A DNA stretch of 52,901 nucleotides from an uncultured Bacteroidota bacterium. GTDB lineage: Bacteria > Bacteroidota > Bacteroidia > 2-12-FULL-35-15. A program made the position numbers and the translations under genes. This document shows positions 21,863 to 52,901 of the stretch, one piece after another; position 1 is the stretch's first letter; the number at the start of each line of letters is the position of its first letter. Under the pieces are notes generated by a model. It searched no databases. It was not told the DNA's origin and was given only the letters and a program-made list of their open reading frames with translations. Location: assembly GCA_903926385.1 (NCBI GenBank), contig CAIYIS010000040.1, positions 1 through 52,901 on the forward strand. Direction: 5' to 3'.

Positions 21863-22204
21863 TTTTCTATTTTTAGTTAGTTAATAATTTTTATGATTAG
21901 GTTTACAAGGTGCTATATATAGTTAAATGCGGGTAACAACTATTTTCAAAAAATTGAGAAGCTACGGGTGTTCTTTCAATCCTTTTTAATTCCATTTGTT
22001 TTTTCATAACAGCGAAATTTTTGATTACAATTCGAGACCAAAATTAAAAAATATTTATTTTTTCCAAAAGTTTTTGGATGTTTTTTTACATTGAACAGGT
22101 AATTTGGTTTTTGGGTAGGCAATAGAGGAGGGGGATTTCAAATTTTAAATTAGTTAAGCTGCTCACGACATTTATAATTCATAATCTATAATTCATAATT
22201 TCCA
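21863..22204. other. Intergenic spacer with heptad words
   Basis: No gene seen. Bases 22172-22199 are four exact-phase heptads (TTATAAT, TCATAAT, CTATAAT, TCATAAT). A G-rich GGCAATAGAGG piece at about 22119-22130 resembles the spacers at 24.7 and 25.9 kb. Confidence 0.5.
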
Positions 22205-25855: not shown

Positions 25856-25893
25856 CACATTTTTTTTGTTGTTAGGCAATGGGGGAGGGGAGG

Positions 25894-25995
25894 GGATTTC
25901 AAATTTCAGATTAGCCAATGGCGAATAGGCAATAGGGAATAGGGAGGGGGATGGGATTTCAGATTTCAGATTATCCAATAGCCAATAGCGAATAG
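25894..25995. repeat. Two heptad blocks (8 and 6 words)
   Basis: Bases 25894-25949 are eight 7-base words and 25954-25995 six more, with a register shift only inside the G-rich run. Words include GGATTTC, AGATTAG or AGATTAT, CCAATAG, CGAATAG and GCAATAG. Word order is nearly the same in both blocks. Confidence 0.65.
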
Positions 25996-26013
25996 GATTC
26001 ACACACGCTGGCG

Positions 26014-37903: not shown

Positions 37904-38239
37904 GGGTGTCTGTTTCAATAGAACGGGTGTCTGTTTCAATAGAACGGGTGTCTGTTTCAATAGAACGGGTGTCTGTTTCAATAGAACGGGTGTCTGTTTC
38001 AATAGAACGAGTGTCTGTTTCAATAGAACCGGTGTCTGTTTCAATAGAACGGGTGTCTGTTTCAATAGAACCGGTGTCTGTTTCAATAGAACGGGTGTCT
38101 GTTTCAATAGAACGGGTGTCTGTTTCAATAGAACCGGTGTCTGTTTCAATAGAACGGGTGTCTGATTCAATAGAACCGGTGTCTGTTTCAATTGAACGGG
38201 TGTCTGTTTCAATAGAACGGGTGTCTGTTTCAATTGAAT
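37904..38239. repeat. Minisatellite: 16 units of 21 bp
   Basis: Sixteen head-to-tail 21-base units beginning GGGTGTCTGTTTCAATAG, with few substitutions (unit junctions vary GAACGGG, GAACCGG, GAACGAG; one unit has TCTGATTC). The last unit changes to TCAATTGAA and forms a near-perfect palindrome with the following TCAGAC (38222-38243). Because 21 is a multiple of three, several frames stay open on both strands; I do not treat them as genes. There are no spacers, so it is not a CRISPR array. Confidence 0.95.
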
Positions 38240-39048: not shown

Positions 39049-39366
39049 TTACGAAATACGAAATATTGAAATTATAAATTATGAATCTTTACGAAATACG
39101 AATAATACGAATCTACGAACTAATGAACTTTACGAAATACGAAATATTGAAATTATAAATTATGAATCTTTACGAAATACGAATAATACGAATCTACGAA
39201 CTAATGAACTTTACGAAATACGAATAATACGAATCTACGAACTAAGGAACTTTACGAAATACGAAAAATACGAATTTACGAACTAAGGAACTTTACGAAA
39301 TACGAATAATACGAATCTACGAACTAATGAACTTTACGAAATACGAAAAATACGAATATACGAAAA
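39049..39366. repeat. Tandem array with 40/41 bp period, 8 units
   Basis: Units begin TTACGAAATACGAA at 39049, 39089, 39130, 39170, 39211, 39252, 39293 and 39334. The first four alternate between a 40-base form with ATTATAAATTATGAATC and a 41-base form with AATACGAATCTACGAAC; the last four are all of the second form. Single extra copies of the second form appear at 41307, 41417 and 41519. Confidence 0.92.
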
Positions 39367-39588: not shown

Positions 39589-39738
39589 AATTATGTATTA
39601 TAGATTATGAATCTATATGAAATTATGTATTTTAAATTATGAATTATAAATGCTTAGTGAATCTTAGTGCCTTAGTGGCAAAACTAATTTGAAATCTGAA
39701 ATCTAATATTTGAAATCTAATATCTGAAATTTGAAATT
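39586..39738. repeat. Heptad-phased spacer
   Basis: 39586-39613 and 39690-39738 are in-phase 7-base words. The second block is seven words: TGAAATC (three times), TAATATT, TAATATC, TGAAATT (twice). Between them sits the dispersed CTTAGTGAATCTTAGTGCC / TTAGTGGCAAAA element. 39739-39871 shows nothing clear. Confidence 0.65.
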
Positions 39739-39871: not shown

Positions 39872-40480
39872 ATGAAGTTAGTAAAAACACCCAAAATGAC
39901 CTCAACTGTTAGGCTTATAACAGATGGTCAGTCGATAATCGACAAGATGACAGCCACCACTAGCTACTTTTCGGGAGCTACTGCGTTGCTGACTGCGGCT
40001 CAAACCGCATTAGATAGTTTGAGAGCTGCGGCTGCTACAGCCGAGTATGGGAGTCCGGCCGATACACAAGCCATGTATCTGGCCAGAAACACATTCAAAA
40101 CCAAACTGATGGTACTGGTATTGTATGTGGATGTGGTAGCAATTACCAATCCCACCGAAGCGGGAGATATTATAGCATGTGCAGGGTTAAACCAAAAGAA
40201 AACCCCCACCATTAATATCCAAACCCTTAAAGTAAAAAACGGAACCACATCGGGTTCGGTTATAGTTAGGAGTAAAGCCAAACGCGGACATTCTTATCTG
40301 TTTCAGGAATCGAGCGATATAGCCAGTACTTCGGGTTGGACTACTGTTTCGGTAGCCACCTCGGCAGCTATATTGCTTACGGGCCGAACACCAGTAAAAA
40401 CTTACTGGTATCGAGTAGCGTTGATAAAAGGAAACGTTCAGCAACCTTTTACCGATCCCGTTTCGATAGTAGTTCTGTAA
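39872..40480 (+). CDS. Hypothetical protein with C-terminal fibronectin-III-like domain
   Basis: A 202-residue protein without a signal peptide. The N-terminal half is helical and Ala/Thr-rich (A-L-L-T-A-A-Q-T-A-L-D-S-L-R-A-A-A-A-T-A-E, then a helix ending L-V-L-Y-V-D-V-V-A). The C-terminal ~85 residues are beta (G-S-V-I-V-R-S-K-A-K-R-G-H-S-Y-L-F-Q-E-S and Y-W-Y-R-V-A-L-I), a fibronectin-type fold. Proteins of this layout are frequent in Bacteroidota but have no known role. GC content is higher than in the flanking repeats. Confidence 0.75.
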   Translation: MKLVKTPKMTSTVRLITDGQSIIDKMTATTSYFSGATALLTAAQTALDSLRAAAATAEYGSPADTQAMYLARNTFKTKLMVLVLYVDVVAITNPTEAGDIIACAGLNQKKTPTINIQTLKVKNGTTSGSVIVRSKAKRGHSYLFQESSDIASTSGWTTVSVATSAAILLTGRTPVKTYWYRVALIKGNVQQPFTDPVSIVVL

Positions 40481-40490
40481 TCCATCAAAA

Positions 40491-40518
40491 AGAATCCTGC
40501 GCAAGCGGGATTTTTTTT
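40491..40518 (+). terminator. Terminator of the 39872 gene
   Basis: AATCCTGC-GCAA-GCGGGATT stem with one G-T pair, followed by eight T, 10 bases after the stop codon. Confidence 0.8.
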
Positions 40519-41062
40519 AGTTCAAAGATTAAAGTTCAAAGTTTCGAGTTTAAAGTTCAAAGTTTAAAGTGACAGGTATAACGTTTAAAGTGCCAAGAAT
40601 AAAGTGAAAACTGCCGAGAATACCGTTAAAAGTTTGGGGAATAAAGTTTAAAGTTTCAGGATTCTGGAATACCGTTAATAATGCCAAGAATAAAGTGAAA
40701 ACTGCCGAGAATACCGTTAAAAAAGCCGAGTTTCAAGTTCAAAGTTTAAAGATTCAGGTATAACGTTTAAAGTTCAAAGTGATAGGTATAACGTTTAAAG
40801 TGCCAAGAATAAAGTGAAAACTGCCGAGAATACCGTTAAAATTGCCAGGTATAAAGTCAATAGTTTAAAGTTTCAGGTTTGGAGCATAACGTTAATAATG
40901 CCAAGAATAAAGTGGAAAGTGTGGAGAATACCGTTAAATAAGTTGAGTTCAAAGTTTAAAGTTTAAAGTTTCAGGATTCTAGAATAACGTTAAAAGGGCA
41001 GAGTAAAAAGTGAAAACTGCCGAGAATACCATTAAAATTGCCAGGTAAGGAGTTCATGGTTC
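40517..41062. repeat. Degenerate heptad array: 78 consecutive 7-base words
   Basis: The whole 546 bases divide into 78 seven-base words with no insertion or deletion. By hand count 67 of 78 have G at position 4. The common words are AAAGTTT, AAAGTGA, AAAGTTC, CAAGAAT, CGAGAAT, ACCGTTA, CAGGTAT and AACGTTT. Words come in higher-order groups of three (21 bases) that recur with changes. The tract is rich in stop codons on both strands, so it is not coding. It begins directly after the terminator of the 39872 gene. Confidence 0.9.
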
Positions 41063-41564: not shown

Positions 41565-41606
41565 TACCTAACAACCAACAACTATCAACCAACAACCAAA
41601 TTTCCT

Positions 41607-42314
41607 TTACGGTGTCGACATCGATACGGGAATAATCTTACCATTTAGATAATGCTGAGCATTTAATGCGAAATCAGCAATATATGCCGCCATTTGTCCC
41701 GCACTTACCGGTGCCTGATAACCCGGAAAAGCTTCTTCCAGCATCTCGGTTTGCACTGCACCCAAAGCCAAACAATTAAACGAAATACGGCTATCTTTGT
41801 ATTCCTCGGCCAGACATTCCGTAAGGCAAGCTATAGCAGCTTTGCTACTACTGTAAGCCGACAATCCCCCAAACTTTACACTTCCCTGAAACCCACCTAT
41901 ACTACTTATGTTTACCACATGAGCCCTCACGGTGTTATTAAGATGAGGCAAAACCGCCTGAATGATACGAGCAGCCGAAAACACATTAACCGAATATGCT
42001 TTGTTAAAATCGCTTAAGGTGAGTTCCATAAACGGCTTGTTTACAAGTGCTCCTGCATTGTTAATTAACACATCAATCGAACCTTCTGTTTGGGCAATAG
42101 CCCCCTTTAATTTGTCCAGGCTTCCCTCCTCTTGTAAATCCATTACCAAGGTAATCACTCTGGCATTAGAATTATTTAACAAGCACTCTTTTTGCAATTG
42201 GTTTAATTTTTGCTCATTTCTGGCCAAAGCAATTACGGTGTGCTTACCGGCCGAAAAGAGTTTGACCAGTTCATAACCTATTCCTCTGCTGGCACCTGTA
42301 ACAATTATATTCAT
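41607..42314 (-). CDS. Short-chain dehydrogenase/reductase (SDR)
   Basis: A 235-residue classical SDR. T-G-A-S-R-G-I-G-Y-E (NAD(P)-binding, residues 6-15), N-N-A-G-A, the active-site Ser in V-V-N-I-S-S-I-G-G, and Y-S-S-S-K-A-A (Tyr/Lys pair). It should reduce or oxidise a carbonyl or alcohol with NAD(P)H. The substrate is unknown. It is monocistronic, with the repeat region downstream. Confidence 0.93.
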   Translation of the reverse strand: MNIIVTGASRGIGYELVKLFSAGKHTVIALARNEQKLNQLQKECLLNNSNARVITLVMDLQEEGSLDKLKGAIAQTEGSIDVLINNAGALVNKPFMELTLSDFNKAYSVNVFSAARIIQAVLPHLNNTVRAHVVNISSIGGFQGSVKFGGLSAYSSSKAAIACLTECLAEEYKDSRISFNCLALGAVQTEMLEEAFPGYQAPVSAGQMAAYIADFALNAQHYLNGKIIPVSMSTP

Positions 42315-52652: not shown

Positions 52653-52901
52653 TACGAAAAACCGACCTTAAAATGTCAGGACATGATTTTAGGATAAAAT
52701 GACCGAACCTTCCCTAAAAGTTATCTAACTATCTGATAAAGTGATTTAACTTTCCGAAATGTTAACTAACTTTAAGATAAAGTGAGTCGACTTTAGGATA
52801 AAATGACCTAACTTTATGGAAAATGATCTAACTTTTCTATAAAGTGAGCTAACTTTATGGTAAAATGATTTCATTTTACGGAAAGTTAATTAACCACCCG
52901 A
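52653..52901. repeat. Degenerate tandem array with 20/21 bp period (cut by the window end)
   Basis: About 12 units of 21 bases (three of them 20) built from words like AACTTTA, GGATAAA, GTGAGCT. The array is still going when the window ends. GATAAAGTGA is shared with words of the 40517 array. 52546-52652 shows nothing clear. Confidence 0.8.

Follow-up and report, generated by a model that had tools for sequence, protein, structure and literature searches.

The short tandemly repeated heptamers of cyanobacteria are known under the name STRR. In most of the genomes surveyed, heptanucleotides furthermore outnumber every other class of long simple repeats, according to the available portions of PMC4679880 and PMC4692102, in which it is hypothesized that this abundance arises because seven nucleotides is the contact length of the polymerase. 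The original prediction for the locus treated here held that no equivalent had been described for this bacterial group, but heptamer arrays have already been reported in Bacteroidetes, since direct repeats of TAACTGA in up to 43 copies are listed for Beggiatoaceae, 15 cyanobacteria and five Bacteroidetes in the accessible part of PMC4679880. These repeats resemble our tract in being heptamer arrays from the same phylum but differ from it in their word, as TAACTGA occurs five times in the window, by which we mean the whole stretch of 52,901 nucleotides that was analysed, which is no more than chance, and not at all in the tract. The bacterial heptameric repeats GGGAATC of Xanthomonas and GGGGA(T/C)T of Nostoc likewise share with the tract a period of 7, an intergenic position, a word family occurring at many places and variation in length and words, but they are G-rich and potential formers of G-quadruplexes, and most of the Xanthomonas ones comprise about four units (PMC4692102, in the text available), whereas the tract is A+T-rich, contains 38 distinct words among 78 and has copies of 75% identity that are still in register. 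Heptamer arrays are in other words known in many bacteria including Bacteroidetes, and the tract is a long and diverged variant with an intact register.

The window corresponds to contig C40 in a genome of 4.27 Mb and 85 contigs, and the tract occupies positions 40517-41062 on its plus strand, where 546 bases divide into 78 seven-base words of consensus AAAGTTT in a single phase with no register slip. These coordinates and counts had been given correctly from the outset, and a recount agrees that G stands at word position 4 in 67 of the 78 words. The tract is found between two gene ends, since an open reading frame of 202 aa upstream of it (39872-40480, plus strand) and a short-chain dehydrogenase/reductase (SDR) gene on its other side (41607-42314, minus strand) are convergent, and it shares its non-coding position with heptamer repeats in general. 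The 202-aa frame has no Pfam match and a single relative among the loci examined, which is found in the genome G007 (28% over 143 aa). A strong terminator-like hairpin at 40487-40518 on the plus strand (RNA fold -17.1 kcal/mol, z -5.5), missing from the output of the consensus scan, carries a T run that ends at the start of the tract.

The periodicity of the tract is far above that of shuffled sequence, so that the outcome in which its signal at lag 7 is no higher than in shuffles is excluded. Lag-7 identity is 0.466 compared to 0.290 ± 0.019 in 500 dinucleotide shuffles (z 9.4), lag 14 reaches z 8.5 against such shuffles and lag 42 an identity of 0.556 (z 13.4), while the strongest of all lags from 1 to 63 is lag 21 with an identity of 0.600 (z 15.8). 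Every one of the 2107 pairs of tract-internal 30-mers that are at least 70% identical lies at a multiple of 7, yet these pairs are evenly spread over the lags modulo 21 (716 at 0, 683 at 7 and 708 at 14). The main internal lags include 21, 91, 98, 119, 196, 210, 217, 308, 315 and 406 bp, and the larger of them are without exception multiples of 7 but in the majority not of 21. The suggested grouping of words into 21-base triplets accordingly holds as a local preference, whereas the strict step is 7. Copies offset by 91 and 98 bp match at 75% only and nevertheless keep their register intact, and at word positions other than the fourth the commonest base is found in 37 to 58 of the 78 words, compared to 67 for the G, which is also present in 32 of the 38 distinct words. 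The tract thus has a tandem 7-bp period above chance in common with known heptamer repeats, but with so many distinct words and a lag-7 identity of 0.466 it does not consist of near-identical copies. When 280-bp windows (24064 in total, covering 853 kb of this genome) were each assigned the best of the periods 4-24 and the best 25 places were considered, 7 was the best period in three, namely the tract (z 45.8), L062 (29.8) and L066 (14.9), and among these 25 places the tract has the top score of those where 7 is best. Some 21-bp arrays equal or exceed its period-7 score (55.1 at L075 and 45.8 at L114), the best period there being 21, and in 33840 windows from relatives the highest score where 7 is the best period is 11.8.

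The tract is dispersed in the manner of heptamer repeats through its AAAGTTT and AAAGTTC parts only. These simple parts match at least 11 other places in the genome itself and at least one place in at least 21 of the 40 other genomes searched (E 0.001), both being lower bounds since candidates were scored only in part, and at the same threshold the diversified core (ACCGTTA, AAACTGC, CGAGAAT etc.) matches nothing but itself. Spacings between AAAGTT cores are multiples of 7 in 8 of 8 cases within the tract, in 26 of 59 in 800 kb of the same genome and in 60 of 106 in 800 kb of relatives, the slipped spacings (33 of 59 and 46 of 106 outside, 0 of 8 in the tract) including the values 8 and 15. 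At these outside rates, 8 of 8 would be seen with a probability of 0.0014 (own genome) or 0.011 (relatives). Strict phase is therefore not the norm for the word family, and copying in step is by itself no guarantee of register. Short runs of other heptamer-type words (TATAATT/CATAATC, CAATAGC, TGAAATC and CAACCAA) also occur in the window at 22173-22199, 25883-25996, 39686-39737 and 41568-41596, and the array of TGAAATC type at 39686-39737 has rows of period 7, 14 and 21.

The lack of small insertions and deletions can be compared with the genome's own rate. When the tract is cut into consecutive 21-bp blocks, the best earlier ungapped match is in register for 25 of 25 blocks, with 88 mismatches over 525 bases, and 25 pairs of noncoding dispersed repeats from the same genome show 56 indels per 486 substitutions. 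If the mismatches between blocks are separate events and the control ratio is valid for arrays, about 10 indels (10.1) are expected and none is observed (Poisson P(0) 4e-5). With an alternative control, a rough count by eye on part of the flank alignments that gives about one indel per 19 substitutions, the expectation falls to about 5 indels and P to about 0.01. According to the available text of PMC4060949, loops of 1-3 bp are corrected very efficiently by mismatch repair and longer ones less so, and such a bias would favor whole-word changes over small indels, but since the control comes from the same genome this effect is already inside the control ratio. Of the explanations originally offered for the fixed phase, we can thus retain that the register is kept beyond the genome's own indel rate and that copying proceeds by whole words, as all lags are multiples of 7, while a protein or structure reading the tract every 21 bp is unsupported, since the duplications within the tract keep no 21-bp phase.

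The hint that 21 bases, or two helical turns, might matter nonetheless bore fruit in other arrays of this genome, and indeed the 21-bp arrays around the tract are a larger surprise than the tract itself. About 1% of the sampled genome consists of arrays of mostly unrelated sequence, nearly all intergenic and with few register slips. Across L059-L078 and L099-L118 (800 kb) they have periods of 21, 42, 63, 84 and 105 bp, and the clearest member of the 21-bp class in the window, at 37904-38238, has 16 copies with 95% matches and 0% indels. Lag identities of noncoding sequence peak at 21, 7, 4, 42 and 63 (400 kb of this genome), and an array finder run at quanta from 17 to 25 bp returned 42 segments with 9691 bases in 853 kb at quantum 21, two of them pieces of the heptamer tract, compared to at most three segments at any other quantum. 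Tandem Repeats Finder (at least four copies, periods 12-130) likewise gives multiples of 21 in 21 of 25 arrays, with mean indels of 0.8% in those 21, and among arrays of fewer than 2.5 copies multiples of 21 make up 16 of 93 here, 7 of 41 in the congener G014 and 3 of 9 in the congener G013. The 40 arrays besides the tract fall into 35 sequence families at 75% identity, and 18378 of their 18606 similar 30-mer pairs (98.8%) lie at 0 modulo 21, off-register pairs being confined to 4 of the 40. They contain at least 691 substitution events, short arrays and untrimmed edges included, for which about 80 indels would be expected. A finder that favors in-register arrays partly builds in such a shortage of slips, and the quantum scan and the indel-tolerant Tandem Repeats Finder answer this bias in part. 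An assembly artefact at k = 21 was judged unlikely, as the units are diverged and three genomes show the pattern. Two arrays of the window lie one base off the rule, one of period 41 with 6.9 copies at 39049-39364 and one of 21/41/62 bp near the contig end at 52688-52894.

It is the length that recurs and not a 21-bp motif, since the 42-bp arrays in L060, L100, L109, L113 and L114:5693 have lag-21 identities of only 0.10-0.24. Furthermore, a 7-bp substructure in 25 consensus 21-bp units is not significant (z 1.3), and the notion that the 21-bp arrays are built from heptamers is thereby unsupported. Of the 42 segments, 23 have no overlap above 30% with an open reading frame of at least 100 aa, and in the remaining 19 the frame has 100-196 aa and extends at most about 270 bp past the array, with the exception of L112, where a 322-aa frame covers two adjoining arrays. 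The predicted curvature of the arrays, calculated with dinucleotide angles, has a mean of 0.613 compared to a background of 0.325, and 15 of 40 arrays are above the 95th percentile of the background, but this is mainly an effect of the 21-bp repetition, which makes any unit bend, and the units themselves fall on average at the 60th percentile compared to shuffled units. Whole-array RNA folding is confounded by strand composition and was left out of the evidence, and palindromes, present at p<0.05 in 4 of 42 segments (Fisher p 0.06), were rejected as something that the arrays have in common.

We consider it reasonably probable, at roughly 0.6, that in the tract we see a decayed, non-coding minisatellite of heptamers that grew by whole-word duplication. 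It may have started from a run of AAAGTTT-type words, belonging to the family that is scattered over the genome and its relatives, and would then have grown as single words and word blocks (91, 98, 119, 210 and 217 bp) were duplicated in tandem, either through replication slippage or through unequal exchange. Since copying needs words that are paired in step, gains and losses would be of whole words, and substitutions would be tolerated and copied onward, while indels of 1-6 bases are missing, perhaps because out-of-step units cannot join further copying or are selected against. Whole-word duplication as such leaves both the missing small indels and the 21-bp hold of the other arrays unexplained, and for the former either out-of-step units drop out of copying or the spacing is selected. 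Since the other arrays are held to a stricter 21-bp ruler, the order of the tract probably reflects a lineage-wide way of copying or maintaining intergenic arrays rather than a reader protein specific to the tract. It should also be mentioned that the G at position 4 is better kept than any other position, which counts against the minisatellite reading by hinting at a constraint on the words.

Such a constraint would be in agreement with a possible but less probable explanation, namely that the spacing is selected because a bound protein, a curved-DNA element or an RNA needs words every 7 bp, with indels being purged and substitutions outside the G tolerated. The missing indels of the tract, the conservation of the G in 67 of 78 words and in 32 of 38 distinct ones, the near-strict register of the 40 other arrays and the fact that slips do happen in the AAAGTT word family elsewhere all speak for this explanation, but a 21-bp helical phase is lost at lags of 91, 98 and 119 bp, and in predicted curvature the tract does not clearly exceed word-shuffled versions of itself (0.80 compared to 0.71 ± 0.14). 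It is likewise in poor agreement with the Rfam search, in which the gathering score is reached nowhere in the tract and elsewhere in the window by three tRNAs alone, which do not lie near it, and with the comparison of congeners, where in 22 of them the orthologous SDR gene has no period-7 tract on its 3' side (highest z7 6.9, in G014), as judged from about 1.5 kb in 21 congeners and 363 bp in one, a 23rd being without sequence there.

It is still more improbable that the tract is simply one of the 21-bp arrays of the genome in a more diverged state. Lag 21 is indeed the strongest of lags 1-63 and two pieces of the tract pass the 21-bp finder, but this notion is largely refuted by the distribution of lags, the pairs of the tract being even over 0, 7 and 14 modulo 21 where 98.8% of those in the 40 others are at 0, and the insignificant 7-bp substructure of the 25 consensus units is equally hard to reconcile with it. 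The tract shares with the 21-bp class an intergenic position and the scarcity of slips, in its case from a register of 7, but not the lags of 0 modulo 21, and with a quantum of 7 rather than 21 it is a neighbor of this class and not a clean member.

That the tract is a decayed or short-lived coding repeat, the 21-bp blocks of which would encode coiled-coil-like heptads (NTVKNAK, NKVKTAE, NTVKKAE) and keep their length for the sake of the frame, is very improbable and was rejected. Two such heptad runs do lack stops, over 51 and 55 codons of the plus strand, which speaks for this reading, but each frame is interrupted by stops somewhere in the tract, where at most 60 codons in a row (on the minus strand) are free of them, and copies offset by 91, 98 and 119 bp, none of which is a multiple of 3, change reading frame relative to each other.

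For the other 21-bp arrays of the genome the evidence on coding is mixed. Their open frames number 98 compared to 68.9 with columns permuted, one of 39 arrays has none open, and variants create fewer stops than when they are moved to columns with the same base (67 frames open compared to 54.9, z 3.0, and to 51.4, z 4.0), although one of eight control triplet sets, two of which are mutual mirror images, also reached z 3.3. The consensus units on the other hand have 154 open frames compared to 145.6 in GC-matched intergenic words (z 1.4), and a codon-position signal is absent from the variation (mean z -0.06, n 23). Coding is thus disfavored by the tests on consensus units and codon positions, while the variants that avoid stops still speak for it.

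Returning to the minisatellite reading and the ruler that the neighboring arrays obey, a whole number of B-DNA turns is first reached, in whole base pairs, at 21 (2 x 10.5). A helical ruler is therefore attractive for the 21-bp arrays, while the heptamer tract keeps no 21-bp helical phase. We tentatively suggest, as an idea that is rather doubtful at present, that the lineage may have a length ruler independent of sequence, by which intergenic units are amplified or kept only at multiples of 21 bp, so that an array would lie on one face of the helix as curved or coherently bound DNA and organise the chromosome in its intergenic regions. The heptamer tract (3 x 7 = 21) would then be a looser or younger product. 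The tract and some 40 sampled arrays keep their 7- and 21-bp registers through hundreds of substitutions, and if indels are truly excluded it is the period itself that matters. Whether the ruler is mutational, as a step of a polymerase or of recombination, or selective, through helical phasing or a bound protein, could then be tested.

The tandem repeats of Borg elements resemble the arrays of this genome in that many are intergenic and of independent origins, but their units are perfect and only 14-38% of the intergenic unit lengths are divisible by three in the accessible portion of PMC9879509, whereas here the period is a multiple of 21 in 21 of 25 arrays of at least four copies and the units are diverged. 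The prokaryotic satellites of Subirana and Messeguer are likewise locus-specific, non-coding and found in few species, and some of their families are derived from heptamers, but the available part of that paper (PMC6749651) makes no mention of a 21-bp ruler, nor do the parts available of PMC9426551 and PMC4060949 describe one. A literature search for a 21-bp ruler of arrays, to which most subscription papers were out of reach, found no description of one either.

The 21-bp pattern is also present in the two congeners G013 and G014. At quantum 21 there are 10 segments in 220 kb of G014 compared to 0-2 at other quanta, and 7 in 80 kb of G013 compared to 0, while the figures are 5 compared to 0-2 in 900 kb of other relatives and 8 compared to 3-5 in 1465 kb of other Bacteroidota. 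Tandem Repeats Finder (at least four copies) gives multiples of 21 in 10 of 11 arrays in G013 and G014 together, in 0 of 5 in other relatives and in 1 of 5 in other Bacteroidota. The 21-bp arrays are accordingly infrequent or absent in what was sampled from other relatives, including 100 kb of G009, the MurA of which appears to be 91% identical to that of the present genome. Two of the 10 segments in G014 are found in long stop-free runs (L223:5134-5273, 260 codons, and L224:10874-11023, 909 codons), and some arrays of this congener are therefore probably coding. An unrelated 42-bp array is found in G014 directly 3' of the orthologous SDR gene (L122:6888-7063), on the same side as the tract.

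A dispersed short repeat of CCCTCTCTTGCGGAGAGGG type, which by eye looks like a hairpin, is often found beside arrays of the present genome, its sites being L062:7680-7722, L075:11151-11193, L114:14579-14621, L071:14219-14262 and L116:15477-15512. L075:10662-11196 and L114:14174-14624 are dispersed copies of one 21-bp array with common flanks, and they differ in length by 84 bp, i.e. four units. Common flanks are likewise shared by L100:16887-17406, which has an array of 42-bp units, and L101:17711-17932, which has none (BLAST; MAFFT left the right flank unaligned), and the latter is a probable empty site for the L100 array.
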